IMG/VR virus record: IMGVR_UViG_3300017971_000002
Span: 124,001-188,000 of that record
Source of the DNA: a virus
Direction: 5' to 3' (one strand)
DNA length: 64,000 nucleotides
The translations under genes and the position numbers were made by a program. The notes beneath the pieces were generated by a model, which was given only the letters and a program-made list of their open reading frames with translations, was not told the origin of the DNA and searched no databases. This document shows positions 31,153 through 63,922 of this stretch, one piece after another. The number at the start of each line of letters is the position of its first letter. Position 1 is the first letter of the stretch.

Positions 31153-31165
31153 TGTCGGAGTTCAA

Positions 31166-32086: not shown

Positions 32087-32087
32087 A

Positions 32088-35515: not shown

Positions 35516-35516
35516 T

Positions 35517-50146: not shown

Positions 50147-50666
50147 GGAGAAGAAATTAATTAACGTTATAAAGAGTAGATTCCATGGCGTTAAGATGAA
50201 GCACGATAAAAGGGGAGAAATCATTCTCCCCTATATTGGTGGTACCAAGACTGCTGTCGAGTTTGTTATCTATGAAGATATGGTCAAAGTTTGGCGTCCT
50301 GGTAACAACACTATAGTCTGTTCTAATAACTACAACTCAGATGAACAGTACATACAGGCTGTCAAGAAGGCCATATATGAAAGTATAAAGATACTTCAGT
50401 TAAAGAAACAGAAGGCTGAGAGAGAGGAAAAGGTAAACAATATATTGTTAATAGAACTACAAGGTCTATTAGATGAGATGAAAATTGATCATGTAAAGAT
50501 ATCATCTACTGAATCATATGTTAGACTAAACTCCGGGACCCGAGCCTATAGTCAAAAGGGTTCAGATGGAAAGACTTTCTATGTGGCCGAAATGAAGTTG
50601 GCCTTTAACAAGGAAAGATTCAAGGAATTCCTTAAGTTTATAAAAGGAGGCAACAATGAAGTGTGA
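50136..50666 (+). CDS. Unknown protein with central coiled coil, similar plan to upstream gene
   Basis: The 176-residue protein has a basic N-domain (KSRFHGVKMKHDKRGEIILP), a coil (ILQLKKQKAEREEKVNNIL) and a C-domain with YVRLNSGTRAYSQ and FYVAEMKLAFNKERFKEFLK. The start overlaps the end of the previous gene; an ATG at 50118 is an alternative. No function is recognised. Confidence 0.6.
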   Translation: MKNREKKLINVIKSRFHGVKMKHDKRGEIILPYIGGTKTAVEFVIYEDMVKVWRPGNNTIVCSNNYNSDEQYIQAVKKAIYESIKILQLKKQKAEREEKVNNILLIELQGLLDEMKIDHVKISSTESYVRLNSGTRAYSQKGSDGKTFYVAEMKLAFNKERFKEFLKFIKGGNNEV

Positions 50667-51111
50667 GGTGGAATTCTTCGGTCTGGGTTATCATACAATC
50701 ATTGGCCAGAAAATCATTGGATGCAAACGTCAAAAAACACCATTTGGTTGGAGGGATGTTGCATCCCAAATCAAAGAGATTAAGAAAAGAAGGTATTATC
50801 TATATCTTCAGTTATCCAAGCAGATAACGAAACCTATTATTTTCTGGACGGGTGACTATAAGGCAAAATGGGCGATGGATAGGATAGAACAGATTCGGAC
50901 CAATCCTGCAAAGGCCCTTGTTCTTATGAGAGACCCGAAACAGATAAAGGCCATACGTGAGTTGGCCAATTACAAAGTTAAGTTTTTTGGTAATGCCGAT
51001 ATACCTATCAAAGCACTTACTGAGGAAGAGATTGATAGGTTTAGTGCTCAACACTGGAATGATAGACCAGCACTGTGTTATATGTTTGAGGACTCGTGGC
51101 GTAACAAGTAA
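50656..51111 (+). CDS. Unknown protein, last rightward gene
   Basis: The 151-residue protein is not recognised. It begins KCEVEFFGLGYHTIIGQKII and includes KPIIFWTGDYKAKWAMDRIE and LRELANYKVKFFGNADIP-like strands, possibly a Rossmann-like or receiver-like small domain. AAAAGGAGG lies before the ATG. Its TAA touches the stop codon of the convergent leftward gene, leaving no space for a terminator between them. Confidence 0.62.
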   Translation: MKCEVEFFGLGYHTIIGQKIIGCKRQKTPFGWRDVASQIKEIKKRRYYLYLQLSKQITKPIIFWTGDYKAKWAMDRIEQIRTNPAKALVLMRDPKQIKAIRELANYKVKFFGNADIPIKALTEEEIDRFSAQHWNDRPALCYMFEDSWRNK

Positions 51112-51450
51112 TCAGACGTCCTCGACACCACAAATAACACCATCAATTTTCCCCTTAAAAGTAGATTGAATCCTATAGAGGAACAAGGCGAGGGCCCTAG
51201 GGAACTCGTCCTTTGACTTCATGGCCAATAGGAGTTGTCCACCATCCATCAAAAGATTATTAAGATGGCCTTCCAGGTGCTTTACAAATTTGTTCATGTA
51301 GAACTTTTTATGAAGTATCTTTGGAATAGGATAATTCTTTTTGACCTGTATTCCTCTCTCCTGAATTTGGACAATTGATACATTGGTCAGTATACTCTCT
51401 TCGGGATTTCCTGAGCATTTCAGGAATGTAAATATGATCTTGTTATTCAT
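51112..51450 (-). CDS. LFLKG-family member 26, divergent, last gene of the array
   Basis: The 112-residue protein keeps the family layout in a worn form: HLNNLLMDGG in place of the core, then LLLAMKSKDEFPRALALFLY as strand and second helix, then STFKGK. The N-terminal 60 residues are beta-rich. It is the only array gene with a late promoter and a hairpin leader in front. The ATG with AGAGGTGG is chosen over a GTG 6 bases upstream. Confidence 0.6.
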   Translation of the reverse strand: MNNKIIFTFLKCSGNPEESILTNVSIVQIQERGIQVKKNYPIPKILHKKFYMNKFVKHLEGHLNNLLMDGGQLLLAMKSKDEFPRALALFLYRIQSTFKGKIDGVICGVEDV

Positions 51451-51470
51451 AACCACCTCTTCATCAGTAT

Positions 51471-51494
51471 GGGGCGCCGTAGCGCCCCTTTTTT
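51471..51494 (+). terminator. Strong rho-independent terminator (rightward) beyond a convergent gene
   Basis: A perfect 7-base-pair GC stem GGGGCGC/GCGCCCC with loop CGTA is followed by six T. It fits rightward termination, although it lies 360 bases past the last rightward gene and beyond the whole convergent leftward gene. In leftward transcripts the same hairpin would sit near the 5' end. Confidence 0.8.
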
Positions 51495-51495
51495 C

Positions 51496-51503
51496 TATTT
51501 ATA
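51496..51503 (-). promoter_or_regulatory. Leftward T4-type late promoter TATAAATA
   Basis: On the minus strand CTATAAATAG precedes AAAAAA and the GC hairpin, 46 bases upstream of the last array gene. It is the only exact leftward TATAAATA seen in the array. Confidence 0.6.
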
Positions 51504-51563
51504 GTTTCGTAAAACGCCCAGAATTTGACGGCCTTAAACCACCTTTAAAACCGCCGACACGGG

Positions 51564-51965
51564 TTAGAAAGAATCGCATTTATGAACTTCATTTACAGGT
51601 TCTTCGTTGTTATATCCAAAATGATTGAACCAGACCGACTGTTTTATGCAGAGATTTGAGTCAGGTTCGATGGTAAATCGTATCTCATCTGTTGAGACGG
51701 ATACCTCTTCATGCTCCACGACAATTTGAAAATCTGACCTCATCACATTATGTGCTGGCAATAATCTGGAGTTCTCTGTCTTTTCTGAGACCAATCCGTT
51801 CATGGTGATTCCAAAAAACCAGAATGTACCAACCAATATACCTATCGCAACAGGTTCCCCTGCATCAGTTAAAATAGAGATAAGTAATGCTAGAGCAATA
51901 AACGCAAGTATACCGAGTCCCCAACCGATGAAGTACCCTAGTATGAAATACTCACCTACAAACAT
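51564..51965 (-). CDS. Membrane protein, tandem trio member 3
   Basis: The 133-residue protein starts MFVGEYFILGYFIGWGLGIL with two hydrophobic segments (about 1-30 and 36-60), then a beta-rich soluble domain ending DSNLCIKQSVWFNHFGYNNE and CDSF. Both ends match the next gene upstream. CGAAAGGAGAACAGG before the ATG fixes the start; an upstream in-frame start is unlikely. It probably sits in the inner membrane with a cytosolic C-domain. Function unknown. Confidence 0.72.
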   Translation of the reverse strand: MFVGEYFILGYFIGWGLGILAFIALALLISILTDAGEPVAIGILVGTFWFFGITMNGLVSEKTENSRLLPAHNVMRSDFQIVVEHEEVSVSTDEIRFTIEPDSNLCIKQSVWFNHFGYNNEEPVNEVHKCDSF

Positions 51966-52377
51966 CCTGTTCTCCTTTCGTCCATTCCTCCGGACATTTA
52001 ATGACATTGTACTTTGGTTTTTTATTTGTATATCCCCAATATGTATAATCAAGACTACTTTCAATACAGAATGAACTATCATGCAAATCGACAAACGCCA
52101 TGTCAACCGTTCCGACGACTATACCTTTCTTCTCTACGTAAATATTATGTTTGGTTCTCCATACGTTCTCACCCTCCAGTAACCGAGTTGCCCTTCTATT
52201 ATCTTCAGTCGACCAAACTATAAAGATTACAAGCGTAACAAGAAATGAGAGCACCACAAATAAGGAAAGATTGTCAGAGTCGAATAGAAGTCCGAAAATA
52301 AATAGAATACCCTCAAAACAAAATATGGCTCCAAAGGTAAAAAAGAATCCAATTGCAAAAAACTCACCGACGAACAT
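51952..52377 (-). CDS. Membrane protein, tandem trio member 2
   Basis: The 141-residue protein begins MFVGEFFAIGFFFTFGAIFC, very like its downstream neighbour, with two hydrophobic segments and a soluble domain containing DSSFCIESSLDYTYWGYTNK. GGAGGCGAATA precedes the ATG, which overlaps the previous stop (TAATG). The similarity in both parts shows a duplication. Confidence 0.72.
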   Translation of the reverse strand: MFVGEFFAIGFFFTFGAIFCFEGILFIFGLLFDSDNLSLFVVLSFLVTLVIFIVWSTEDNRRATRLLEGENVWRTKHNIYVEKKGIVVGTVDMAFVDLHDSSFCIESSLDYTYWGYTNKKPKYNVIKCPEEWTKGEQDVCR

Positions 52378-52772
52378 TATTCGCCTCCAAATACATCGCA
52401 AAAGACAACTGTTTTCTCATCTATCGTATTTACGCCAAGGGGACTATAGGCCTTACGATGTTTGATACATAACAATGAATCTGGTTCGTCTTTAAATTTC
52501 ATCTCGATTGTTCTAACAAATTTGTCATCCGTATCCCTAAGCATTATGGCTGTCTGAGACCTTACGATCTCTACTGGATAATAAACCCTATGTATCTTGT
52601 GATGATTAGATACTATCCCAATGATAGTGCAAAAGGCTATTGTTACAAGACTTAATGCAAAAAAGACATCAGATAATGACTTATTGTTTCGTGTCAAGAA
52701 TGACACTAAAAATAAAAAGGCAGCAATAATAGTAACCCATGCTATGAACCCCGGAACTATAAATGAAAACAT
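52377..52772 (-). CDS. Membrane protein, tandem trio member 1
   Basis: The 131-residue protein has two hydrophobic segments (about 3-25 and 38-55) and a C-domain with DSLLCIKHRKAYSPLGVNTI and VFCDVFGG. The C-domain matches the next two genes, while the N-terminus has diverged. AAAGGAAATTGAA precedes the ATG. A 134-base gap containing inverted repeats lies upstream. Confidence 0.7.
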   Translation of the reverse strand: MFSFIVPGFIAWVTIIAAFLFLVSFLTRNNKSLSDVFFALSLVTIAFCTIIGIVSNHHKIHRVYYPVEIVRSQTAIMLRDTDDKFVRTIEMKFKDEPDSLLCIKHRKAYSPLGVNTIDEKTVVFCDVFGGE

Positions 52773-52804
52773 TTCAATTTCCTTTCATCTAAATGGTTGT
52801 TTTA

Positions 52805-52850
52805 GGGAAGGGATTATTAGTGAGGATGTATTGACGTATAATCTCTTCCC
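52805..52850. repeat. Inverted repeat in a non-coding gap of the array
   Basis: GGGAAGGGATTAT and ATAATCTCTTCCC form a 13-base-pair stem with one mismatch and a 20-base loop. Further right, GGGTCC and GGACCC form a smaller hairpin (about 52877-52897). Neither is followed by a T-run on the minus strand. A leader structure or protein-binding site in front of the membrane trio is possible. Confidence 0.5.
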
Positions 52851-52906
52851 TTGGTTGCCTGGCGGCGTAACCGATGGGTCCGTGGGCATGGGACCCTCAT
52901 ATGTAG

Positions 52907-53128
52907 TTATAATTCTAATAGTTTCTTCAAACCCTCCACAAGGTCTTTATCTTCAATACTAAATATGTGAGTTCCTGACATGAATCCGTTAAATGAGACG
53001 GCATTACATAAAAGTTGTCCAAGTCTAGAGTCTGGATGTTTTTTCCAAACTTGATATAACAGACTAATTATTTCTGGAATTCTATTTGGGTCTCTCATCT
53101 TTTTTAATCCTGGTTTAACTTTCCACAT
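52907..53128 (-). CDS. Small conserved phage/bacterial protein (RDPxRI...RLGQL type)
   Basis: The 73-residue protein has the pattern KMRDPNRIPEIISLLYQVWK, PDSRLGQLLCNAV, IEDKDLVEGLKKLL. I recall small uncharacterised bacterial and phage proteins with this R-x-P-x-R-I ... RLGQL ... [ED]D-x-L layout; no function is known to me. The start could instead be the Met of MRDPNRI. It is not related to the surrounding array family. Confidence 0.65.
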   Translation of the reverse strand: MWKVKPGLKKMRDPNRIPEIISLLYQVWKKHPDSRLGQLLCNAVSFNGFMSGTHIFSIEDKDLVEGLKKLLEL

Positions 53129-53134
53129 CTCTTG

Positions 53135-53329
53135 TTACCATAAGTAAATTCTATTTCGTATATCCCTGTACCAGTCAAGAATAAAATTCATACCACCTGT
53201 CTTCCAGAATATGTAAGTACAGAATAATGTACTTATAGCATTAAGCGTTGATAATGTTGTTAAAAAGATCAGGCAATTTAATAGACCAAGAGACCCCATG
53301 AACAATCCGTAAATTAGTAAAATGGTCAT
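53135..53329 (-). CDS. Small membrane protein
   Basis: The 64-residue protein has two hydrophobic segments (MTILLIYGLFMGSLGLLNCL and about 25-45) and a basic end (DWYRDIRNRIYLW). AAAGGAACTTGA precedes the ATG, which overlaps the upstream stop (ATGA). It is one of several tiny membrane proteins scattered through the array. Confidence 0.6.
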   Translation of the reverse strand: MTILLIYGLFMGSLGLLNCLIFLTTLSTLNAISTLFCTYIFWKTGGMNFILDWYRDIRNRIYLW

Positions 53330-53601
53330 TCAAGTTCCTTTGTCAAATTCTCTGCACCCGCCACATTATTTCTTATTAAAAAAGACCTGAATGTCTTATA
53401 CCTTTTCTCGTTATCAAGAACAAAATTACAAAACACACCATCCGTTGATCTACTTCCAATAAAGTATGGCATCTGATGAAGAAAGAATAATTTGTTAAAC
53501 TTATCAATGTGATCATTTGGTATGAATGTATGTAACTTGCACACAGTCTTGCCTGAATCAACCTGATACGTCCTTATTTCAAGTATCTGGCTCACAAACA
53601 T
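53326..53601 (-). CDS. LFLKG-family member 25
   Basis: The 91-residue protein has the core DKFNKLFFLHQM (about 33-44), then VFCNFVLDNEKRYKTFRSFL as strand and second helix. K-G of the core is replaced by H-Q. The ATG after AGAGGAAAG is preferred over an earlier in-frame start inside the upstream gene. Confidence 0.7.
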   Translation of the reverse strand: MFVSQILEIRTYQVDSGKTVCKLHTFIPNDHIDKFNKLFFLHQMPYFIGSRSTDGVFCNFVLDNEKRYKTFRSFLIRNNVAGAENLTKELE

Positions 53602-54100
53602 TGTCCACTTTCCTCTTACCGTACTTCCATTTCTCAAGTCTTATATTTCCATCTGTTAAATGCCTTAAAACTTTCAAGTGCTTTTTTGACTTTATGGTCA
53701 CAGAGAATCTCTCAAATCCTCCCGCGGTATCAGTTAGTGGTCTATCAAATTCGATACCTGCTATAAAGCACATCTTCTTAAAGTTATCCAAATTTCTTTG
53801 TGTATCATCCCCGTCTATAGTTAGTGCTTTGATTAGTTCATGATCCACCCACTGACTACCAATTTTAACTTTGAATGTACATTCAATCTCATAGAGACCA
53901 TTCACCACCTTGTCAAGTCTCTTTATGTTTCTAAACTCTTTTAACTTTTCCTTACTTGTTATCGCTTGGATGAACATACTAAGGAAGGTCTTTTTCTCTT
54001 TAGGTTTAGTCAATTCATCGAAACGGCTATTCAGCATACTATGTATAGTTTTAAACAGTTTAGCTTGTGCGACGTCTGTTGGATTTATTTGCTTTTTCAT
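53579..54100 (-). CDS. LFLKG-family member 24, N-terminally extended
   Basis: At 173 residues it is the longest member. The first 60 residues are a helical addition (AKLFKTIHSMLNSRFDELTK), followed by a beta region and the core DNFKKMCFIAGIEFDRP (about 109-125), then FSVTIKSKKHLKVLRHLTDG. CGGAGAATAC precedes the ATG. The helical extension is unique among the members here. Confidence 0.75.
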   Translation of the reverse strand: MKKQINPTDVAQAKLFKTIHSMLNSRFDELTKPKEKKTFLSMFIQAITSKEKLKEFRNIKRLDKVVNGLYEIECTFKVKIGSQWVDHELIKALTIDGDDTQRNLDNFKKMCFIAGIEFDRPLTDTAGGFERFSVTIKSKKHLKVLRHLTDGNIRLEKWKYGKRKVDNVCEPDT

Positions 54101-54377
54101 GTATTCTCCGTAGATATCGTTTGAATATTGGTGAACTCATTATCATACCTTCCGTTGTCCCGAGCCAATCCGCAAGACATCTAATTATCCTTTCGTACTT
54201 CTCCTCCGTGTTCACAGTGCATTTTATCTCTACAGAATACGAACCCTTCGGCTTGGTGTGTTTTATACCGGCAACAAATAACAACCGAAGAACCTTATCG
54301 ACTTCTTCCTCGTCAGCGATCTCTATTACCATCTTGAACTTTTCAGGATCAAGTGCCTTCAGTTTCACACTGCCCAT
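54060..54377 (-). CDS. LFLKG-family member 23
   Basis: The 105-residue protein reads VIEIADEEEVDKVLRLLFVA then GIKH (core about 24-37) and SYSVEIKCTVNTEEKYERII. The core runs as L-L-F-V-A-G-I-K. The C-terminus is basic with no PxW motif. The ATG with CGGAGTATT is chosen over a TTG 18 bases upstream. Confidence 0.75.
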   Translation of the reverse strand: MGSVKLKALDPEKFKMVIEIADEEEVDKVLRLLFVAGIKHTKPKGSYSVEIKCTVNTEEKYERIIRCLADWLGTTEGMIMSSPIFKRYLRRIHEKANKSNRRRTS

Positions 54378-54684
54378 AATACTCCGTTGCTTCAAGTTGA
54401 TGTTTTATATGCTTTAGTTCTTTCTTTATATGATTGTTTCTAAGAGTTCCCCATGTCTTTGTGCTAACATACTTCCTTATTAGATATATCAACCTCTGAT
54501 AGTCTTTGAGGGTCTTCAGATACACACGAATTACCTCATTCGTTGATCCCATCTCTATAATCTCAAAATCAATTGCGGAGATTAATAATAGACCAGATAT
54601 CTTTCCTTGAGGCGCCAGAAGTACGACCTCATTAGTGTTCGGCCACACCGAAGAAATACTAACTATGTCTTTTTTCTCTGTCAT
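54349..54684 (-). CDS. LFLKG-family member 22
   Basis: The 111-residue protein has GKISGLLLISAIDF (about 27-40) in place of the core and RVYLKTLKDYQRLIYLIRKY as strand and second helix. K-G of the core is S-A, as in the next upstream member, so these two are probably closest relatives. The C-terminus is a charged helix. Confidence 0.72.
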   Translation of the reverse strand: MTEKKDIVSISSVWPNTNEVVLLAPQGKISGLLLISAIDFEIIEMGSTNEVIRVYLKTLKDYQRLIYLIRKYVSTKTWGTLRNNHIKKELKHIKHQLEATEYYGQCETEGT

Positions 54685-54937
54685 GATTGACCGGAAACAT
54701 AAAATGCTCGTTAAGTACATCAGTAGGGCGAACTACAAATGGAAGTATCCCTTTATTTAGATCAATATTTAGTATGTCCACAAACCTATTCAATTGTTTC
54801 TTTGTGTTTAGTATTACAGTTATCCTATCCTGACTCATGTTATGCTCAATGGCCGACAGTAGAAACAATTTTGAGGCCTTCTCAAAATGTATTCCGTACC
54901 ACAGCGAGACCTGTATAGGATATTTGTTTTCTTCCAT
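54659..54937 (-). CDS. LFLKG-family member 21
   Basis: The 92-residue protein has EKASKLFLLSAIEH (about 19-32) and RITVILNTKKQLNRFVDILN. It has a short N-terminal part of only 18 residues before the core. TTTAGGAAT precedes the ATG. A consensus-like sigma70 promoter ends just before the ribosome site. Confidence 0.75.
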   Translation of the reverse strand: MEENKYPIQVSLWYGIHFEKASKLFLLSAIEHNMSQDRITVILNTKKQLNRFVDILNIDLNKGILPFVVRPTDVLNEHFMFPVNHDREKRHS

Positions 54938-54944
54938 ATTCCTA

Positions 54945-54973
54945 AATATAGAAAAGAACTGATTGTTTGTCAA
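54945..54973 (-). promoter_or_regulatory. Leftward sigma70 promoter TTGACA-N17-TATATT
   Basis: A perfect -35 box (54973 to 54968) and TATATT (54950 to 54945) with the ideal 17-base spacer fill the small gap between two array genes. The start site would fall almost on the ATG, so the message would be leaderless or nearly so for the first gene. Confidence 0.65.
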
Positions 54974-54976
54974 CAA

Positions 54977-55279
54977 TTAAATTTCACCTATTCTTTGAAT
55001 CATTCTATCAATGTCTGATTTCTGAATCTCCCTTGTTACCCTAACTGATGTATATCTTTTACCGTATGCTTTTAGAATGAATTTAACGAAGGCTGCTCGA
55101 TGACTTTTTGGAAATCTCACAAAGAAATATCCTCCGTCATTATTTATTATTTTATATCCTCTTAGAAATAAAAGGTTCTGCACCTTCTCATCCTTAATCA
55201 ACCAGGCACCTTTTCCATCGCCTGAGAATATGAACTTGCCCACACCCGAACCCTTATTCTTTAATAACAATGTAAGCAT
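54977..55279 (-). CDS. LFLKG-family member 20
   Basis: The 100-residue protein is a clear member: DEKVQNLLFLRGYKI (about 30-44), GGYFFVRFPKSHRAAFVKFI then LKAYGKRY, and a terminal helix SDIDRMIQRIGEI. It shares a tight junction with the unrelated 341-residue gene upstream. No good ribosome site is visible, which suggests translational coupling. Confidence 0.8.
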   Translation of the reverse strand: MLTLLLKNKGSGVGKFIFSGDGKGAWLIKDEKVQNLLFLRGYKIINNDGGYFFVRFPKSHRAAFVKFILKAYGKRYTSVRVTREIQKSDIDRMIQRIGEI

Positions 55280-55281
55280 GT

Positions 55282-56307
55282 CTAGATCACATATTTACTA
55301 TAATGTTTATCAATTTCCTGGGCGTTGTGAGGGAAACGTCTTTTCATCTCATCGAACACTGTTCTAGGAATCGCCACATCCTCGTCCTTTGAGAAAGGTA
55401 TGATACGAAAATACATATTCCATAATCTAATCTCTGATGACTTTCTTGTTACACCTTTATAGTCTTTATATGACTCCCTATCTTTAAGAATAGCATTCTC
55501 CAGAAACCTTTTAAAGACTCCCTCACGAATGTCCTTTGGATTTGGTTTTATTTTACCTTTTTTACATTCTATAAATGAACTACTTGATTTTAGAACCATT
55601 TCCTCTATGTTATCGGACGTAGGACTCTTCAGATTTCTTAATCTTGTAACATCAGAGTTGGATCTCCATTTGTCAAGAAACACCTTGGCAGATTTACTAT
55701 TGACAACTCCCTTTAGATTGAAGCCGCCATCTCTTCCTGAGCTTGGTGTATACATCATATTTCTATCCCAAATTCTCTCGACTTTTGCACGGAGGATCTT
55801 CCAGTTTCCTAGATACAATTCCTCCTTTCCAGATCGCATGACATATGTATTTCCTGGTGACATCTGAGTGAATGGGATAAACTTGGCAACTGAACGTTTG
55901 GAGTCTAACAATGCCTTTTCATACATCGTTCCATGATCGGGTATTAGTCCTATACTATGATCCATGCAGAAAACAAGATCGCCCATAACAATTCCACCTT
56001 TATGTATACCATTGGTTTGCATAATCTCAAGTAGATGTCTATCACGAAGATCCATGATGTACTTATCATTTACCAATACCTTAAACACAGTATTAGATTT
56101 TCTATGATTATAGTCAATAACTTTCACATTATTGGTGACGCCATGTATATCCACAATGGGTCCTGGTTTATTTGATCGATATTGAGTAGCCCACCATTTG
56201 GCACTCTTTAATGCCTTTGTGTTGCCCTTCTCAATAGGATACGCATGCATGGTACCATCCTTCTCTGGTTTTCTGCACACCATTGTAATATTCTGAATAA
56301 GTTTCAT
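55282..56307 (-). CDS. Unknown 341-residue protein embedded in the array
   Basis: This protein does not have the array motif and is not recognised. The N-half is beta-rich with VNDKYIMDLRDRHLLEIMQT and IHKGGIVMGDLVFCMDHSIG, perhaps an OB or SH3-like domain. The C-half is helical and Arg/Lys-rich (KWRSNSDVTRLRNLKSPTSD). AAAGGAAAGAAATC precedes the ATG. It overlaps an LFLKG member upstream by 4 bases and is 2 bases from the next, so it belongs to the same operon. Confidence 0.7.
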   Translation of the reverse strand: MKLIQNITMVCRKPEKDGTMHAYPIEKGNTKALKSAKWWATQYRSNKPGPIVDIHGVTNNVKVIDYNHRKSNTVFKVLVNDKYIMDLRDRHLLEIMQTNGIHKGGIVMGDLVFCMDHSIGLIPDHGTMYEKALLDSKRSVAKFIPFTQMSPGNTYVMRSGKEELYLGNWKILRAKVERIWDRNMMYTPSSGRDGGFNLKGVVNSKSAKVFLDKWRSNSDVTRLRNLKSPTSDNIEEMVLKSSSSFIECKKGKIKPNPKDIREGVFKRFLENAILKDRESYKDYKGVTRKSSEIRLWNMYFRIIPFSKDEDVAIPRTVFDEMKRRFPHNAQEIDKHYSKYVI

Positions 56308-56633
56308 GATTTCTTTCCTTTCTTTTTGTTTAATTCTTTAAATGCTTCGGCGAACATCTGATGATCATAGGTTATTTCAACCACGGGATCTCCTACTAAT
56401 TTGACCATACTCGCAATTAGATCAAAATCTTTCTTGGTCTTACATCTCACAAGACCTCTATCGGTACTAAACAAACCGGGTGCGTTTTCTACATTCACTC
56501 CCTTTAGAAATAAGAGTTTTTTTAATTTATCTCCAGATACATATATTGGTAGATGATCCTTTTTAAATTCAAATGACTTTTCCTCAGAAATACCATCATG
56601 CGAATGTATTGTTACGAATACTCTATCTACCAT
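56304..56633 (-). CDS. LFLKG-family member 19
   Basis: The 109-residue protein has the textbook core GDKLKKLLFLKGVNV (about 34-48), then GLVRCKTKKDFDLIASMVKL and VVEITYDHQMFAEAF. The N-terminal 30 residues form strands. The end is Lys-rich (KELNKKKGKKS). Confidence 0.8.
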   Translation of the reverse strand: MVDRVFVTIHSHDGISEEKSFEFKKDHLPIYVSGDKLKKLLFLKGVNVENAPGLFSTDRGLVRCKTKKDFDLIASMVKLVGDPVVEITYDHQMFAEAFKELNKKKGKKS

Positions 56634-56986
56634 GTTATCTCTCTTATAAGTGCCTGTCTAATTTTTGATAAATCCTTTGGAGTATTCTTGTATACCAAAT
56701 TCCATATGTATAGAAACTGATTGATCTCCATGGGGGTTTTGGCCACTATGAAATAACCTCCCTCTTTGTTTTGATATAGTTCTTGTTTCTTTCTTAGAAA
56801 TAGTAGATCAACTAATTTCGGATGGGTGATTTTTATTCTTGCTCCAATCCGTCTTTTTTCTATTTCTATCGCTTCATTGTCATTTAAAAAATAATAAGGC
56901 TTAGTCATTATTTCACCATATAGATTTATTTTTATCGAGAGAGTGCCTCGTTTTGGTCTATGTTTTTTTAGGAAAGATTTTATCAA
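56627..56986 (-). CDS. LFLKG-family member 18
   Basis: The product has up to 119 residues. Its core is HPKLVDLLFLRKKQELYQ, then GGYFIVAKTPMEINQFLYIW and VYKNTPKDLSKIRQALI. The start is either a TTG after CGGAGAAC (used here) or an ATG 78 bases downstream with a poor ribosome site. With the TTG, the N-terminus is basic and overlaps the neighbour by 29 bases. Confidence 0.72.
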   Translation of the reverse strand: MIKSFLKKHRPKRGTLSIKINLYGEIMTKPYYFLNDNEAIEIEKRRIGARIKITHPKLVDLLFLRKKQELYQNKEGGYFIVAKTPMEINQFLYIWNLVYKNTPKDLSKIRQALIREITW

Positions 56987-57263
56987 CTGCGTTCTCCGGT
57001 CTAAATCTTATCTGTCTAAGGTTGGGTGTCGATGCGGCCAATACATCACACGCCTTCTTTAACTGACTTCTGGATTGTATGTATATTCTATCGATCTTAA
57101 CATCAAACCCAGCAAGTAATAGATGGTCCTGTGTTCGTCTACCTAAGTATGGCGGCAGTTTGAAGATCAGACCAAGTTCTGGAGTCCATGCTGTCTCTAT
57201 CTGATGATTGGAATATCCTAATATTCCACGTTCATATACAAATATAAATTCAATTCTTTTCAT
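56958..57263 (-). CDS. LFLKG-family member 17
   Basis: The protein has about 101 residues. The core is divergent, RRTQDHLLLAGFDVK (about 42-56), with a very short connector to RIYIQSRSQLKKACDVLAAS. The N-terminus alternates strands (FIFVYERGILGYSNH). Starts at 57269 or a TTG at 57290 are also possible, because no clear ribosome site was found. Confidence 0.7.
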   Translation of the reverse strand: MKRIEFIFVYERGILGYSNHQIETAWTPELGLIFKLPPYLGRRTQDHLLLAGFDVKIDRIYIQSRSQLKKACDVLAASTPNLRQIRFRPENAVDKIFPKKT

Positions 57264-57570
57264 AGACATCAAAATCAAATTTCTGACCAAGATACATAGA
57301 CCCTGTGTATATGATCGGTCTACCCTTGAACGCCAACATCAAGGCCTCACGAAAGTCCTTGATCTGATCCTCTGTTATGTATACATTTGTCAAAAACTTT
57401 CCCCTATCTTCAAACGTTTTTATTCCTTTAAGAAATACCAATCTCTTTAGTGTATCATCACTAAATTCTAGATTTATCCAAGGTCCATAATCCGTGACCC
57501 TTACATCTGTTAAATATACACCCTCAAGTGTCCAATCATCATCCTTGAGATTCATTCCAATCTCAAACAT
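57250..57570 (-). CDS. LFLKG-family member 16
   Basis: The 106-residue product has DDTLKRLVFLKGIKTFED (about 38-55), FLTNVYITEDQIKDFREALM and a LAFKGRPIIYTGS end. The ATG with CGAAAGGAAGAGGA is preferred; an ATGATG at 57597/57594 that overlaps the previous stop would add nine residues. Confidence 0.78.
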   Translation of the reverse strand: MFEIGMNLKDDDWTLEGVYLTDVRVTDYGPWINLEFSDDTLKRLVFLKGIKTFEDRGKFLTNVYITEDQIKDFREALMLAFKGRPIIYTGSMYLGQKFDFDVYEKN

Positions 57571-57593
57571 TCCTCTTCCTTTCGCTGGTAACA

Positions 57594-58007
57594 TCATTTA
57601 GTCGGACAAGAATATGTTATCTGAAATCTTTGTGTTCCTCTATAGATCATACATATGACCTCAACAAATTTATCAAAATCTTCCGATGTATGTATATGGA
57701 CTAGATAATGGCCGGGATATTTGCTTGGTAGAGCAATGCCACGAAGGAAAGCGATTCTATAAAACGCCGAGTCTTTATTGAATCCAAAGTATATTAATCC
57801 GCCCGCTCCTGCTTTATCTAAGGGATATACATCGGTTCTAGGAAAATATTCATCTCCATATCTATAATGATCTTTTCCATTAAAACTAGAACTGGTATGT
57901 ACATACTCGACCTTAAGTCTGCCGCTAATAAGAGGTATATCAGAACCTTTTAACACTCGAAAAATAGCCACTTCATCGTCTCCTGTACAATATTTGTCTG
58001 TTAGCAT
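57594..58007 (-). CDS. LFLKG-family member 15, long N-terminus
   Basis: The 137-residue protein has a long N-terminal region containing an aromatic and glycine-rich stretch (YRYGDEYFPRTD, DKAGAGGLIYFGF), then the core DSAFYRIAFLRGIALP (about 79-94) and HYLVHIHTSEDFDKFVEVIC, then MIYRGTQRF. An internal sigma70-type promoter lies 57 bases upstream, within the preceding gene. Confidence 0.78.
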   Translation of the reverse strand: MLTDKYCTGDDEVAIFRVLKGSDIPLISGRLKVEYVHTSSSFNGKDHYRYGDEYFPRTDVYPLDKAGAGGLIYFGFNKDSAFYRIAFLRGIALPSKYPGHYLVHIHTSEDFDKFVEVICMIYRGTQRFQITYSCPTK

Positions 58008-58317
58008 AATCTATCAATCTTATAGATTTACTTTCCTTGTAAATTAAGAAGATACACTTTAAAAATATATTCAATTGTTCCCATGTTGTCAAGTAGAATT
58101 TGTAATGACCATGTCCATACTTATCATGTTTCTCGTATTTGATCTTACCTGGCGATAAAAACAATAACCTTGCAAGGGAGTCTCCCCACTTTCCACCAAT
58201 TATGATCTCCTTAGAACCCTGGGCAGAATCTTTACATTCAAGATACGATGATGCATCATGTTCGTATCCTATACCCATCTGCGTCAACCCTAGCCAGGGC
58301 ATCTTACCTATTTTCAT
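57973..58317 (-). CDS. LFLKG-family member 14
   Basis: The 114-residue protein has GDSLARLLFLSPGKIKYEK (core about 45-57; K-G is S-P-G), then HYKFYLTTWEQLNIFLKCIF and LIYKESKSIRLI. The codons of its second helix also spell a promoter for the following gene. It overlaps both neighbours. Confidence 0.78.
   Translation of the reverse strand: MKIGKMPWLGLTQMGIGYEHDASSYLECKDSAQGSKEIIIGGKWGDSLARLLFLSPGKIKYEKHDKYGHGHYKFYLTTWEQLNIFLKCIFLIYKESKSIRLIDYANRQILYRRR
58064..58092 (-). promoter_or_regulatory. Leftward sigma70 promoter TTGACA-N17-TATATT inside a gene
   Basis: TTGACA (58092 to 58087) and TATATT (58069 to 58064) have a 17-base spacer. It lies within the coding region of member 14 and would give a leader of about 50 bases for member 15. 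It has the same boxes and spacing as the promoter at 54945. Confidence 0.6.
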
Positions 58318-58741
58318 TCGTTAGTTTCTCGAACTTGTTTATTAACCATGATTCAGAATCTTCATCAATATAAATTATCATGTCCTTGTATTTATGAAAT
58401 ATCACTTTTATAAGTTCATAAATCTTTTCCTTTGTATGTATCTGCTTAGTCTTGAATAGATTATTGTCTGTCCAGGTAGTCGCCGTTTGCGCGACCGATG
58501 TTGAAACGAAAAAAGGTCGGGGTCCACGTTCCAGCACATCATAGTTCACGTTCTTTAGAAACACCAACTTACCAAGTTCCGCACACTCAAAATACATCAG
58601 ATATTTATTATGAATATTTCGAGAGAATATGATCTTCTCATAATGTACCGCCTCAATTAGACCCTCAATTCGATTATGTATAACGAATCCGCCGATGTAT
58701 GTTCCCTCAATCGTACCAATTAATTCGTCCTTCATAAACAT
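58304..58741 (-). CDS. LFLKG-family member 13, with insertion and W-motif end
   Basis: The 145-residue protein has the core CAELGKLVFLKNVNYDV (about 53-69), an insertion of about 25 residues (VAQTATTWTDNNLFKTK), then the second helix TKEKIYELIKVIFHKYK. It ends with ESWLINKF, a form of the C-terminal tryptophan motif seen in several members further right. Confidence 0.78.
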   Translation of the reverse strand: MFMKDELIGTIEGTYIGGFVIHNRIEGLIEAVHYEKIIFSRNIHNKYLMYFECAELGKLVFLKNVNYDVLERGPRPFFVSTSVAQTATTWTDNNLFKTKQIHTKEKIYELIKVIFHKYKDMIIYIDEDSESWLINKFEKLTNENR

Positions 58742-59103
58742 TGCTGTACCTTTTTTATTTCTCTATAAAATGTGTTCACAAACTTAGTTCCCCAATCGGG
58801 AATGTTAGTTGATCTACTTATGTTTGCTTTAATATTTCTCCACAGAAAGACAACCTCTTTAATAAGTTGATGTACTTTAGGATTACTTAGACCCTCCACT
58901 ACCCAAGCATTAGTATCTTGATCAAATTGAATGTTATAACCTTTTAGTAACAATACACGACTAAGACCTTCTATATTAAACCAGACACTATATCTATCGT
59001 TGCAGATTCTAAATATATCAATAAATTCAGTACGATTTAGATGAAAATGTATTATATTTCCATCGTTAAGCATTTCTTGCAATAGTTGATAATTTCCTAT
59101 CAT
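58732..59103 (-). CDS. LFLKG-family member 12
   Basis: The 123-residue product has NIEGLSRVLLLKGYNIQF (about 43-60), AWVVEGLSNPKVHQLIKEVV and the end motif NIPDWGTKFVNTF. AAAGGACATTATTAC precedes the ATG, which overlaps the previous stop as ATGA; a GTG 21 bases upstream is less likely. Confidence 0.8.
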   Translation of the reverse strand: MIGNYQLLQEMLNDGNIIHFHLNRTEFIDIFRICNDRYSVWFNIEGLSRVLLLKGYNIQFDQDTNAWVVEGLSNPKVHQLIKEVVFLWRNIKANISRSTNIPDWGTKFVNTFYREIKKVQQCL

Positions 59104-59465
59104 GTAATAATGTCCTTTATCCACTCAGGTGTGTCGGAACAGACGGCTATCTTTTTTGTCCTGAGAACGAACCCCAACATTCCTAATATCTTCTTCAGCT
59201 CATGCTTTCTCAATCGTCCCATGTACCACCACAAGTCGTCCCCAACATATTTTGTGGTCTCGCACAACCTCATCCTGGGTCGAAGACCCTTAAGGAGCAG
59301 AATTCCCGATAGACCAGCCATCTCGGGCGTGAACCATAGATCATAGTAACCACCCAGTCGCCTAAACACTGTCGCAACGTGTCCTCCAATTATTCCCTTG
59401 TCATGGAGGGACACTTCCCAGATATCCTTAGATTCCAACGACCCCATCGTGTCCGTCATCCGCAT
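59100..59465 (-). CDS. LFLKG-family member 11
   Basis: The 121-residue protein has PEMAGLSGILLLKGLRPR (about 47-64), an aromatic connector (DDLWWYMGRL), the helix KHELKKILGMLGFVLRTK and the end motif SDTPEWIKDIIT. Its region has visibly higher GC content than neighbouring members. Confidence 0.8.
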   Translation of the reverse strand: MRMTDTMGSLESKDIWEVSLHDKGIIGGHVATVFRRLGGYYDLWFTPEMAGLSGILLLKGLRPRMRLCETTKYVGDDLWWYMGRLRKHELKKILGMLGFVLRTKKIAVCSDTPEWIKDIIT

Positions 59466-59818
59466 TTTACCAGCTCCACAAACCAGGGCGGAACGCCCTC
59501 AACAAAATGTATATCATCGCAGTGCTTTCTTACAAACTCAGCAACTGTGCAAAGACCAATGAATGAAATCACGAACTGAGGGAGTTTGTTAGTTCGTTTT
59601 CTCTCTTTAAAACCGCCAAGTAAAACCAGCTTACCTATCTTCTCGGAGTTTACTGTCATTATAAAGTCTCCTGCATTAATGTCTCTAAATGCTACATAAC
59701 TGATCTTTTCATTCTCTTGAAAGAACACTGCCCAACATGCGTCCCTGAGAGGATCCATTCTTAGAAACATATAGTCAGCGATTATTCGATCACTGTTTAT
59801 TTCATTAGGGTTAATCAT
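59456..59818 (-). CDS. LFLKG-family member 10
   Basis: The 120-residue protein has NSEKIGKLVLLGGFKERK (about 57-74), FVISFIGLCTVAEFVRKHCD and the end motif GVPPWFVELVKCG. The core K-G is G-G. It overlaps its neighbours by 4 and 10 bases. Confidence 0.8.
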   Translation of the reverse strand: MINPNEINSDRIIADYMFLRMDPLRDACWAVFFQENEKISYVAFRDINAGDFIMTVNSEKIGKLVLLGGFKERKRTNKLPQFVISFIGLCTVAEFVRKHCDDIHFVEGVPPWFVELVKCG

Positions 59819-60156
59819 AACATCGCCCTTCTATAGTCAAAATCAAACCCCACAAAACCAAGATCCCTATTAAGTTTCCTCGGGAAGTCCTGATGCTGTG
59901 CTACATATGTACCCCTAAATGCCATTCTAATACATGGTATCACCATCCTCTTGAACTCCTTGTATGTGCGAAACCTTCGGGTGCAATGCTTTCCAGGGGT
60001 ATAGTAATCGTTTGTGTTGTTTATCTTCTGTATACCTCTAAGAAATATCAACCTGTCGATCCTTTCAGATGTGTATGACAACCGCCATCCAAGAAAGGTG
60101 TCCCTATCGAAGCAGACAAATCCATCATTTGTATGTAATATATATGTCTTTCTCAT
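59815..60156 (-). CDS. LFLKG-family member 9, lacks W-motif
   Basis: The 113-residue protein has an early core, TSERIDRLIFLRGIQKIN (about 29-46), then a Tyr/His-rich connector, RRFRTYKEFKRMVIPCIRMA and FRGTYVAQHQDF. The C-terminus is different from its neighbours, with no PxW. One base is shared with the upstream stop. Confidence 0.78.
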   Translation of the reverse strand: MRKTYILHTNDGFVCFDRDTFLGWRLSYTSERIDRLIFLRGIQKINNTNDYYTPGKHCTRRFRTYKEFKRMVIPCIRMAFRGTYVAQHQDFPRKLNRDLGFVGFDFDYRRAML

Positions 60157-60524
60157 TATATGTTATCCACGAGATGTGGGTTTAATGCAAGTAGATCCCT
60201 CTTTATCCATTGTGCAGTGTGATTGTTCATAGCCAAACCTTTATCTATCATTATCATGTCCTTGATTAGAAGTTCCACCATCCACCAGTCCACATAGTAA
60301 AGCGGGTCATTATAGGAACCCCTACCAAATATCTTGTATCCTTTTAGAAATATCAATCTGTTCGCCCTCTCATGTTCTTCAGGAACACTTATTAAAAACT
60401 TCTTTCTAAATCTTCGAACCAATAGACAGAAGTCACGAAACAAGTTCATGTGTTTTCTAGAATGTAATCCGAGAATAAATCCAATCTCATTAACAGACTT
60501 ATCTCCATTGAAAAAATCACTCAA
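60156..60524 (-). CDS. LFLKG-family member 8
   Basis: The 122-residue protein has HERANRLIFLKGYKIFGRG (about 51-69), DPLYYVDWWMVELLIKDMIM and the end HTAQWIKRDLL. The N-terminus holds a helix rich in Arg (LVRRFRKKFLISV). It overlaps the next gene upstream by 4 bases. Confidence 0.82.
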   Translation of the reverse strand: MSDFFNGDKSVNEIGFILGLHSRKHMNLFRDFCLLVRRFRKKFLISVPEEHERANRLIFLKGYKIFGRGSYNDPLYYVDWWMVELLIKDMIMIDKGLAMNNHTAQWIKRDLLALNPHLVDNI

Positions 60525-60871
60525 TATTCAATCTCCAATAATTTGTATATCCATTTTGGTGTGTCTGAACAAGGATGCATATTCATCGTATCATAAGAAG
60601 CCTTATACATTTTGAGAACATTAATAAGATCCTTCTTAGTTATGTATCTAAGACAGTAAATATGACCATTTTCCTTATCCTCTAAATTTGCCCAATTATC
60701 ATCTAATCTCTTTAGAAATAGTAGTTTATGAAGTTTCTCAGAATCGTGCCATACATTATAGTAAGATCCAATTCGTACAATGTAGACCCCACACTCTGTA
60801 GAATGTATAGCCCAGATTCGTTTTGAACCAAATGTTTGATCATAGTATTGTAATGAATGTTTAAATTTCAT
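60521..60871 (-). CDS. LFLKG-family member 7
   Basis: The 116-residue protein has DSEKLHKLLFLKRLDDN (about 43-59), a connector, IYCLRYITKKDLINVLKMYK and the end motif SDTPKWIYKLLEIEY. SDTP-x-W-I is shared almost exactly with member 11 four genes away, which points to duplication and shuffling. Confidence 0.82.
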   Translation of the reverse strand: MKFKHSLQYYDQTFGSKRIWAIHSTECGVYIVRIGSYYNVWHDSEKLHKLLFLKRLDDNWANLEDKENGHIYCLRYITKKDLINVLKMYKASYDTMNMHPCSDTPKWIYKLLEIEY

Positions 60872-61266
60872 TCTATCCCCGTCACCAGTAACGCTCCAGG
60901 AAATCTGGTTGTACTTCTACAATATACATCAAGTTTCTTTGACCATGTATGTTCAAGATAAAGTTCAAGAATTTCCCATAATGCTTTTGTATCTATCCGA
61001 TACAATATTCCATTCTGTAGAAATTCTTTGTTCTCAAACCTTATGTTCTTTAGAAAGATTAATTTTTCAAATGTCTCCTCATAGATACATATGTAAATAT
61101 GTTCGTATATTTTTACCTTCACATCAACCGTTAAAAAGAAAGTCGGATTACGGGAGTTTCCAAATGTCCATATATCCTTAACTGGCTTTTTTGTGCCCCT
61201 AACAAGTTTACACGTTCTATCTTCCCGATGTTGTTCCATGTCCACGGGCCTTATTTTAAAACTCAT
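60868..61266 (-). CDS. LFLKG-family member 6
   Basis: The 132-residue protein has a basic N-terminus, a strand pair (FFLTVDVKVKIYEHIYICIY), the core EETFEKLIFLKNIRFEN (about 63-79), LYRIDTKALWEILELYLEHT and a C-terminus without PxW (RFPGALLVTG). Confidence 0.8.
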   Translation of the reverse strand: MSFKIRPVDMEQHREDRTCKLVRGTKKPVKDIWTFGNSRNPTFFLTVDVKVKIYEHIYICIYEETFEKLIFLKNIRFENKEFLQNGILYRIDTKALWEILELYLEHTWSKKLDVYCRSTTRFPGALLVTGIE

Positions 61267-61618
61267 ATATTGACCCCAGTATCTTTAAAAACCACCATTT
61301 GCCTTCCTCATGAAAATTAGGTACACGATTATGATTTATTCTAAATAACTCTTTGAGAATCATGAAAATCTGTTCAAATGTGACAATGTAGTTTGGATCC
61401 TGATCCTCATCATAATCAAACACCCTAAACCCCTTTAGAAACATGATCTTATTCATTGATTCACAATTCCTATTAATACACATTAGCCATTGTTCTTTCC
61501 ATTTCTTGACAAGTATTTCATGCCCGTAATCATATTCTATGAGTTCCCTTCTTTCATAATAGATACCAAATAGAATATCTGTACAATCACGATCAGACCA
61601 ATATTCGTATTCACCCAT
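61256..61618 (-). CDS. LFLKG-family member 5
   Basis: The 120-residue protein has an acidic N-terminus, then CESMNKIMFLKGFRVFDYD (about 52-70), YIVTFEQIFMILKELFRINH and the end EEGKWWFLKILGSI. TAAGGATGTATT precedes the ATG, which lies within the end of the SemiSWEET-like gene. Confidence 0.8.
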   Translation of the reverse strand: MGEYEYWSDRDCTDILFGIYYERRELIEYDYGHEILVKKWKEQWLMCINRNCESMNKIMFLKGFRVFDYDEDQDPNYIVTFEQIFMILKELFRINHNRVPNFHEEGKWWFLKILGSIYEF

Positions 61619-61862
61619 AATACATCCTTAGTGAAACCAGTATGATATATTCAATAAACTGTAATGCGTTCATGGCCATTGTGAAGTATAAACCGAGTAT
61701 GAATAACACAACCACCGATACAAATAACGCCACCGTCGTGGGTATTAGAAACATGAAGGATAGTTGATCAACCTTCTTCATTCGATACACTCTTATTATC
61801 TGAGGAAGGATCGACATAGCAAACGTTAGGCTACATAGGGCCAGTATCAGATCAAGTATCAT
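61611..61862 (-). CDS. SemiSWEET/PQ-loop-like membrane protein
   Basis: The 83-residue protein has three membrane segments with the PQ-loop signature in the first: MSILPQIIRVYRMKKVDQLS (about 16-35), then FMFLIPTTVALFVSVVVLFI and a third segment FIEYIILVSLRMYYG. Length and topology match bacterial SemiSWEET sugar transporters (about 85-100 residues), which act as dimers. It is embedded in the array with ATGA overlap upstream. Transport itself is not proven; loss of the sugar-site Asn cannot be judged here. Confidence 0.72.
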   Translation of the reverse strand: MILDLILALCSLTFAMSILPQIIRVYRMKKVDQLSFMFLIPTTVALFVSVVVLFILGLYFTMAMNALQFIEYIILVSLRMYYG

Positions 61863-62260
61863 GGCTTAGGGCTATCCCATTTAGTCTCAAAACCTAACGC
61901 TCTAATTTCTCTAAGAAACCATTGATATTTACACTCATAAATGTCTATATTTTTATCCATCAATTTTATAAGTTTAAGAAACATCCTAAGTTTATTCCAA
62001 TCGAGAAGATAACAAAAGTCACCATCATAATCAATACACCATTTCTTGATGCCTTTAAGAAATAATAATCTAGAAATTCTCTCAGAACGAATGTTGACAC
62101 AAACAATAAACTTCTTTCTCCAATATCTAATCCATGCAATAGAATGATAGCCACCTGTTGGCGAATTTAACATTACGCTCGCAATGAAATATTTAGTCTC
62201 TCTATTTATTATAGTCATTCCGTCTTTCATATCGGGCAACCCATAAATCCTCGTAACCAT
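61859..62260 (-). CDS. LFLKG-family member 4
   Basis: The 133-residue protein has one of the clearest cores: RSERISRLLFLKGIKKW (about 58-74), then FCYLLDWNKLRMFLKLIKLM and the end KYQWFLREIRALGFE. A Met 10 residues in is an alternative start because no clear ribosome site is seen. Confidence 0.82.
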   Translation of the reverse strand: MVTRIYGLPDMKDGMTIINRETKYFIASVMLNSPTGGYHSIAWIRYWRKKFIVCVNIRSERISRLLFLKGIKKWCIDYDGDFCYLLDWNKLRMFLKLIKLMDKNIDIYECKYQWFLREIRALGFETKWDSPKP

Positions 62261-62290
62261 CCATTTACAAGTTCATCGTTCCAGCGTTTC

Positions 62291-62491
62291 TTACCAGCCG
62301 AGCTTCTTTAGATTTTTAATTATAGTACGTACAATAAGGACAACCCATACGAGAGGTATACACCAGAATAGTATATGTCGAATACTTCTGAATATATCTT
62401 CATTCAAAAGAGTTTGAATGATGACTGCCATGAATACAAGAAATAGTTGTACAATATATAATGCCATGATAAATCCAAATACTTCACTCAT
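62291..62491 (-). CDS. 66-residue membrane protein, paralog of 63722-63922
   Basis: Two hydrophobic segments (FGFIMALYIVQLFLVFMAVI and FWCIPLVWVVLIVRTII) flank a charged stretch. The second contains IPLVWVV, identical in the other 66-residue gene of the array, and both end in basic residues. GAAAGGAGATAAG precedes the ATG. A small inner-membrane protein of unknown role. Confidence 0.68.
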   Translation of the reverse strand: MSEVFGFIMALYIVQLFLVFMAVIIQTLLNEDIFRSIRHILFWCIPLVWVVLIVRTIIKNLKKLGW

Positions 62492-62511
62492 CTTATCTCC
62501 TTTCAATTGAC

Positions 62512-62868
62512 TTATTTTTCATAACAATCAACGGCATCCTCGTCATATTCATCACGATTGTTGAACCTTATTCCTTGAAGAGCTTCGTTGACCTCCCATG
62601 GTAGATACGAACCGTTCCAGGAAAGTTTAGAAAACTCAATCTTTGATATCTCTATCATACGGGAAACCTGTTTTGTATTTAATCTATATCTCCGTATACC
62701 ACGTTCATTTTCGTTCGGAAGTTCTCCATATATTCCTTTTAGAAAAGAGTATTTGACGATTCTCTCAGAGCAACAGATGACATTCCATTTACCTTTAACA
62801 AAGGCGGCACACAAGAAACAACCGATTTGTTTATCCTCGCATAATTCAAAATATGATTCACTCGACAT
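62512..62868 (-). CDS. LFLKG-family member 3
   Basis: The 118-residue protein has a Cys-rich N-terminus (FELCEDKQIGCFLCAAF, then ICC), the core SERIVKYSFLKGIYGEL (about 34-50), RYRLNTKQVSRMIEISKIEF and SYLPWEVNEAL near the end, with an acidic tail. GGAGAGGTGG before the ATG fixes the start. The five N-terminal Cys residues are unusual in the family. Confidence 0.8.
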   Translation of the reverse strand: MSSESYFELCEDKQIGCFLCAAFVKGKWNVICCSERIVKYSFLKGIYGELPNENERGIRRYRLNTKQVSRMIEISKIEFSKLSWNGSYLPWEVNEALQGIRFNNRDEYDEDAVDCYEK

Positions 62869-63262
62869 TATCCACCTCTCCACAAGACACGATTCTTGGA
62901 TCGGCCTGAAAGAGACCGACTTCAACATTTTTCTTTCTCATTATTAACTGAAGCATCTTCACCACCGTCCGTATGTCCTTTTCCTCAATCATGTATCCAA
63001 CTACTTTTTCACTTTCGTTTTTTGATCTAAATGGTTTGAGATTTTTAAGAAATAGTAATCGTGAAAGTTCTCCTTCCAGTACAAATATCTTATATCTATT
63101 GTTGACCGATTTTTCAATTCGAACCCAAACATCAGTTAGGGTTCGAAATGGAAATCTTGAAAGAAATATCTCATCAGTTCCTTTTTTCTCCAACATTCCT
63201 GGAATTTCATCTACATTACATTTGTAATAACCTAGTTCGGATCTCTCTATGAAAGCTCTCAT
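62858..63262 (-). CDS. LFLKG-family member 2
   Basis: The 134-residue protein has EGELSRLLFLKNLKPFRS (about 63-80) and VVGYMIEEKDIRTVVKMLQL then IMRKK, with a C-terminus lacking PxW. TTTAAAGGAGATTTT precedes the ATG, which overlaps the upstream stop. Confidence 0.82.
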   Translation of the reverse strand: MRAFIERSELGYYKCNVDEIPGMLEKKGTDEIFLSRFPFRTLTDVWVRIEKSVNNRYKIFVLEGELSRLLFLKNLKPFRSKNESEKVVGYMIEEKDIRTVVKMLQLIMRKKNVEVGLFQADPRIVSCGEVDNVE

Positions 63263-63678
63263 AAAATCTCCTTTAAACAGCGATCTTCCCACCACACTGG
63301 TATCTGTTTAAAATTATGACTTTCTTCATCATTAAAACATATCGTCAACTGTACAAAACCTCTGGCCTTCACCATCTTTAGATAGCAATAGAGAAACTTT
63401 TGAAGATCCTTACAATTGATACTATAACAGATATGCATCTTGGTAGTCAATACTTTATTCTTTCCAAACCCAAGTAGAAATAACATTCTACTTAATGCCT
63501 CATCATATCGGTTTGTCCATAGCCGACCAACATTTGAAGTGAGCCCAAAGATATCTATATCTGTTATGACTGGACTTTCTGCTCGAATTATCCATTTCAT
63601 GTTATCCGTAAATCCATTACCGAGTAGAAACTTCGTGAATGAATTTCCATAGGCCTTAACTTTCTTTCTCTTTTTCAT
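63259..63678 (-). CDS. LFLKG-family member 1
   Basis: The 139-residue protein has a very basic start (MKKRKKVKAYG), the core YDEALSRMLFLLGFGKNK (about 58-75), ICYSINCKDLQKFLYCYLKM, VKARGFVQLTI and the end motif IPVWWEDRCLKEIL. It is the rightmost member seen; the array may continue beyond the window. Confidence 0.82.
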   Translation of the reverse strand: MKKRKKVKAYGNSFTKFLLGNGFTDNMKWIIRAESPVITDIDIFGLTSNVGRLWTNRYDEALSRMLFLLGFGKNKVLTTKMHICYSINCKDLQKFLYCYLKMVKARGFVQLTICFNDEESHNFKQIPVWWEDRCLKEIL

Positions 63679-63721
63679 CAAAACTTCTCTCTTTCGACTG
63701 TTATCTCTATGCCTCGTGACA

Positions 63722-63922
63722 TCAGCCTAGGCTCCTATAATATCTAATCACCTTTATGGCATACCAGACGACCCAGACAAGCGGAATGTATAGTCTCAAT
63801 AATTCCTTCCGTGTTTTTATCGCTGAATCGAACTCATCTAACGCATCGAATAAGGTAAAGAGGGTCACCATCAACCACTGAGCTCCTATGAGAATTCCCA
63901 TAACTAATAGAAAATCAATCAT
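63722..63922 (-). CDS. 66-residue membrane protein, paralog of 62291-62491
   Basis: An N-terminal hydrophobic segment (IDFLLVMGILIGAQWLMVTL) is followed by an acidic/basic linker and a second segment YIPLVWVVWYAIKVIRYYRS. The linker differs from its paralog. AAAGGAGATGAAAA precedes the ATG. No function is known. Confidence 0.68.
   Translation of the reverse strand: MIDFLLVMGILIGAQWLMVTLFTLFDALDEFDSAIKTRKELLRLYIPLVWVVWYAIKVIRYYRSLG

Follow-up and report, generated by a model that had tools for sequence, protein, structure and literature searches.

The LFLKG family and its two blocks

The window analysed here is a stretch of 64,000 nucleotides, bases 124,001-188,000 of the 202,503-bp virus record IMG/VR IMGVR_UViG_3300017971_000002, and its right-hand end carries a dense array of small leftward genes, many of which encode a domain with the recurring motif LFLKG. 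An earlier note on the window had described about 26 paralogs of this LFLKG family among 35 complete leftward open reading frames (ORFs), filling positions 51112-63681. The 35 ORFs are present as listed and the core of the array holds, whereas the figure and the left boundary had to be revised. Positions below are those of the window unless the record, or a piece of sequence such as L006, is named.

A hidden Markov model (HMM) seeded with an alignment of 17 obvious LFLKG proteins was iterated over the 1,743 stop-to-stop ORFs of at least 45 amino acids (aa) in the whole record until it settled at 32 ORFs with E<0.01. At the same threshold, ORFs shuffled 20 times gave two matches and reversed ORFs gave one, while leave-one-out (LOO) profiles recovered 32 of 32 members, 27 of them at E<1e-4. 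The LFLKG proteins are one homologous domain in many tandem copies.

Inside the window, 21 confirmed members span 54060-63681, all on the minus strand. With their LOO E-values in brackets, they lie at 54060-54395 (3.4e-3), 54659-54976 (6.5e-6), 54977-55279 (6e-6), 56304-56633 (3.6e-8), 56627-56986 (2.4e-8), 57250-57597 (1.6e-9), 57594-58007 (9.7e-7), 57973-58317 (1.2e-7), 58304-58741 (2.8e-8), 58732-59124 (2.3e-8), 59100-59465 (2.1e-12), 59456-59818 (1.3e-12), 59815-60156 (2e-8), 60156-60524 (3.9e-11), 60521-60871 (1.8e-10), 60868-61266 (4.9e-7), 61256-61618 (1e-10), 61859-62260 (2.7e-12), 62512-62928 (3e-5), 62858-63295 (1.3e-9) and 63259-63681 (7.7e-7). Four further minus-strand ORFs are probable members by motif and position only. 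Three of them score E 0.02-0.13 when kept out of the model, namely 53326-53637 (E 0.047), 53579-54100, which has a longer N-terminal part (E 0.13), and 54349-54720 (E 0.019); the fourth, 56958-57290, is matched only by models containing it and fails even E<10 otherwise. The count for the window is therefore 21, or 21-25 with the probable members. The left 2-3 kb of the interval first proposed holds other genes; the ORFs at 51112-53329 are not members, none of them having been picked up by the family model.

The coding frames of the array are tightly packed, and the listed frame was the best coding frame in all 28 frames tested. Neighbouring genes often overlap by 4 to 14 bases, so that the ATGA-type overlaps described earlier are right for many junctions. 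Non-members are interspersed at 55282-56307 (minus strand, 341 aa, no known family), at 61611-61862 (minus strand, a SemiSWEET-like PQ-loop membrane protein, Pfam PQ-loop E 2.7e-7), at 62291-62506 and at 63722-63922.

The family continues past the end of the window. Three more leftward members lie at record 187,918-188,973, bringing the leftward block to 24 of the 32 confirmed members, and the remaining eight form a half-array on the opposite strand, running rightward at record 194,474-200,198. The two blocks are divergent, the leftward one at about 175-192 kb and the rightward one at about 192-202 kb of the record. Six small ORFs at record 194.7-196.5 kb join the family by hhalign (E 2.8e-5; the score is 28.0, and shuffling gave at most 12.5); the confirmed member 194,474, one of the seven rows in that group, carries part of this link. 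At the far end of the record, ORFs 4,585 and 4,994 (4.6-5.4 kb) were matched by profile comparison (E 0.0016) and are likely a family pair, and ORF 200,591 of the record is borderline by HMM. Confirmed members thus number 32; the right-hand group raises the count to 38, and with all possible members included it may reach about 45.

Predicted fold and divergence of the copies

The members are small single-domain proteins of 75-150 aa, and one scaffold runs through all copies: a beta meander, helix 1 with the pattern E-x-L-x-[KR]-L-L-F-L-K-G, a beta hairpin carrying a Y/F, helix 2 and a short C-terminal helix. AlphaFold models were obtained for 61256-61618 (16 paralogs in the alignment, pLDDT 79, pTM 0.72) and for 57250-57597 (22 paralogs, pLDDT 70, pTM 0.61). 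The second has six strands and three helices and the first is less complete, and the order of elements is the same in both, with three strands, the LFLKG helix 1, the hairpin, helix 2, a short strand and helix 3. Because the alignments behind them overlap, the two models are only partly independent. With a core well separated from shuffled sequence and a predicted fold common to both modelled members, the single family proposed in the earlier note stands.

Conservation is confined to the hydrophobic core, [KR]33, K38-G39 and Y/F52; the columns of lowest entropy (F36, L37, L34, G39, [KR]33 and Y/F52) lie in the core or at the end of helix 1. Among the conserved columns, no set of polar residues suggests catalysis. 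The N-terminal strands, the loop between helix 1 and the hairpin, the C-terminus and the net charge all vary widely. Predicted isoelectric points (pI) range from 4.7 to 10.9, with several members strongly acidic (pI 4.7-5.2), and the number of cysteines per member from 0 to 7, with no conserved Cys/His set.

Core identity among the 32 confirmed members averages 18% and reaches 37% at most, and within the leftward array similarity does not follow adjacency (Mantel r -0.02, p 0.37); for these reasons the copies look old and saturated. The closest copies (record 195,534/195,770/195,993 and 4,585/4,994) are 35-56% identical, with the synonymous rate dS saturated or nearly so and the non-synonymous rate dN at 0.38-0.61, and these closest duplicates are therefore under purifying selection. 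The fast divergence suggested earlier was not shown, and to judge from the sequences the family looks old and constrained, not freshly amplified.

Relatives, promoters and genomic surroundings

The earlier note knew of no named family with this pattern, a view that the searches support: in a scan of 33 members against Pfam, PHROG and PADLOC no listed family was matched by more than one member. A PDB sequence search returned one chance match only (E 1.3), Rfam gave no match, and Foldseek against PDB and BFVD gave zero matches at E<0.001. The weak fold matches included proteins of phage G, which were set aside: gp278 lies in no evident array, and the whole of phage G is empty by HMM. With tblastn, five members searched against phage records found nothing or chance matches, including one in Vibrio phage phiKT1024 (E 3) that is antisense to an annotated gene. 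The family HMM, run against T4, seven other Straboviridae, phages G and 121Q, a Vibrio phage and about 28 IMG/VR records, gave a single match, in 121Q (E 0.005), to a lysozyme whose matched part resembles a LysM repeat and which we regard as chance. The T4-like genomes searched are without a detectable copy, and single-member and alignment-based scans of IMG/VR found no relatives. One coding pattern, RLxFLKGxK, had 22 matches in IMG/VR, none of them belonging to the family; it is narrow and fits only two window members. Genomes related through ligase, tail sheath, capsid or baseplate proteins hold no detectable copy, and none of them was shown to cover the array region. The nearest relative, a 66-kb contig, is colinear over about 104-164.7 kb and ends about 10 kb before the array.

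The array had been called exceptional, which has to be qualified. Tandem arrays of more than 30 paralogous genes, described as very similar, have been published for the jumbo phages G and 121Q (Hua et al. 2017, PMC5646251), a statement restated in a 2026 review (PMC13282480), so the phenomenon is already known. The LFLKG array shares with them the tens of tandem paralogs in one large phage genome, but the G and 121Q genes resemble each other closely, unlike the highly diverged LFLKG copies, and as neither genome has a credible LFLKG profile match the family is a different one. Phage G also carries ~35 zinc ribbons that arose by expansion within its lineage (Iyer et al. 2021, PMC7824862), possibly the same as its published tandem array; there too one small domain has grown to tens of copies. 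The LFLKG family differs in having no conserved Cys/His set and no match in phage G. What is new here is an orphan family, its very high divergence and the mirror-image layout.

The motif TATAAATA, the T4 late promoter core, occurs 18 times in the window against 5.7 expected. Seventeen copies, scattered among the structural genes, are on the plus strand at 1108-44017, most of them 30-50 nt upstream of gene starts. The eighteenth is on the minus strand at 51496-51503, ahead of the gene 51112-51456, and makes that gene a probable late unit of its own. The motif is absent from both strands of window 51.6-64 kb and of the 15.5-kb piece L006, and it does not occur at record 180-202.5 kb. Between the blocks lies a predicted divergent promoter pair of sigma-70 type, TTGA[CG]G-17-TATAAT (TTGAGG and TTGACG) with an extended TG, and both promoters carry the 16-mer TGTTATAATTATAGTA, at record 191,945 (minus) and 192,184 (plus); no other copy was found in the record within two mismatches. 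The minus-strand promoter leads into the leftward block and the plus-strand one into the rightward block. Several genes and some terminator-like sites intervene between each promoter and its array, so that read-through into the arrays is an assumption. On this sequence evidence both blocks are probably expressed early. The region of the pair (L006 4937-5192, record about 191,937-192,192), between the half-arrays, is richer in G+C (0.47-0.52) and has a GC skew near zero. The phage also encodes an RpoS/RpoD-like sigma factor (L009:7339-8157).

At the left of the array, a terminator-like hairpin (51471-51488, plus strand; 7 bp, G+C-rich, followed by TTTTTT) faces the rightward genes and marks the meeting point of the two gene directions. 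Three tandem paralogous membrane proteins at 51564-52772 (minus strand) form a small family of their own beside the array; as candidate LFLKG members this trio (51564/51952/52377) was rejected, having no profile similarity to the family. A second paralog family, 'VEFFG', sits at the edges of both blocks, with three members (window 50656-51111; L006 14213-14659 and 14676-15107) that are 28-36% identical and match no known family.

The record belongs to a large, uncultivated phage of the T4 superfamily. PHROG matches include a contractile tail sheath, a baseplate wedge and a DNA ligase, and T4-like replication and head genes were also recognised by eye. A 5.4-kb tail region had zero nucleotide matches among 50,697 phage records, and the closest relatives of the phage are IMG/VR fragments with 54-67% protein identity. 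A glycan-synthesis cluster on the plus strand (24445-37556), with several glycosyltransferases, a methyltransferase and an NAD-dependent epimerase among overlapping genes, resembles the sugar clusters of cyanophages (PMC7824862). Elsewhere lie an adenylosuccinate synthase-like gene (L008:8236-9348), nearer to PurA than to PurZ models, far under both cut-offs, and with a possible link to modified purines; two DNA cytosine-5 methyltransferases that are 47% identical (L011:3361-4752 and 5503-6822, minus strand); and, in the structural region, three big related ORFs (L007 5684-13932, record 109,684-117,932; 31-52% identity), possibly decoration or fibre proteins.

Possible roles of the copies

The array is real and substantial. 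The reading that we favour for its function, at a little less than an even chance, is that the LFLKG proteins are expressed early and bind without catalysing, every copy being adapted to a host or defence protein different from those of the others, and that they serve to take over the cell. The two divergent blocks would be transcribed outward from the one sigma-70-type promoter pair, and the copies would be produced at the start of infection. A possible functional parallel is the host-takeover module of SPO1, in which 26 genes encode small phage proteins that target different host processes (PMC6873191). Like the LFLKG blocks it is a dense cluster of small genes, with early placement predicted from sequence for the latter; the LFLKG genes, in contrast, are one diverged family.

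Several points weigh against this reading. None of the members has been assigned a function, directly or through a characterised relative. The promoters and the timing were read from sequence. A pI of at least 8 is predicted for 22 of the 32 members, with which nucleic-acid binding would also fit. Finally, the likeness to SPO1 would be one of function only, because its takeover genes are not known to form one paralogous family.

The main rival, which we consider rather unlikely, is that the family is an expansion of small regulators that bind DNA or RNA and have a fold of the MotA-like 'double wing' type, each copy tuning phage or host promoters, or coating DNA as was suggested for phage G and its ~35 zinc ribbons (PMC7824862). 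The C-terminal domain (CTD) of T4 MotA recurs among the best small-domain Foldseek matches of both models (best probability 0.77, E 0.18-1.4), and matches in the viral library include MotA of phages 133 and Cronus. This domain (Pfam MotCF, about 105 aa) has six strands and three helices (PMC2988021), as does the 57250 model, and both the T4-type late promoters of the phage and its many basic members would suit such a role. The TM score to MotA is, however, 0.43 or less, no Foldseek match reaches E 0.001, LAGLIDADG proteins and kinases score similarly, MotCF was not matched in the Pfam scan of 33 members, and the strongly acidic members fit poorly. Because profile-profile comparison with eight MotA-CTDs, run alongside shuffled and reversed controls, was non-significant (hhalign probability about 1% or less) and column-shuffled controls scored as high, we treat MotA as a lead and not as a relative.

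Selectively weak duplication, in which copies with mostly little function piled up in spare headfull capacity, would agree with tandem duplication as a proposed route of jumbo-phage genome growth (PMC5646251). We judge it improbable: every tested frame is intact, the dN of 0.4-0.6 at saturated dS in the closest copies points to constraint, conservation of the core persists at 18% identity, and the listed ORFs gave no noticeable trace of a pseudogene. Still less probable is that the copies are subunits of one hetero-oligomeric assembly such as a shell, filament or scaffold. The shared fold and the packing of genes in one direction per block would suit it, but beyond the [KR] positions of helix 1 there is no conserved polar surface for a common interface, charge and length differ widely, and the early-type placement favours a function against different host targets over one in a single assembly. 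Phages can inject paralogous small proteins, the internal proteins of T4 being an example, but virion or injected internal-head proteins are a very improbable identity for the LFLKG members, whose blocks lack the late promoter motif and whose leftward block is on the strand opposite the structural genes. Chance resemblance among unrelated small ORFs, which the short core and the few members connected by pairwise BLASTP might suggest, is refuted by the leave-one-out recoveries, the nearly empty decoys and the element order predicted alike twice.

Host-directed early binders remain the favoured reading of the array. A bolder and more doubtful version is that an undescribed small alpha/beta fold serves as a general binding scaffold, with about 40 early proteins each neutralising a different host or defence component. 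By analogy, and with similar reserve, such an array might be the phage counterpart, as a mirror-image double operon, of the multigene families of large eukaryotic viruses. Should the targets differ from copy to copy, the array would offer a ready panel of natural binders on one scaffold; one could then study directly how a phage adapts a single fold to many host targets, and new anti-defence proteins might come to light. DNA binding by the copies would instead add a second large case of regulator expansion in a phage. In both cases, about 32-45 genes of the genome move out of 'no known family' and are united by a profile and a structural model into a single family.

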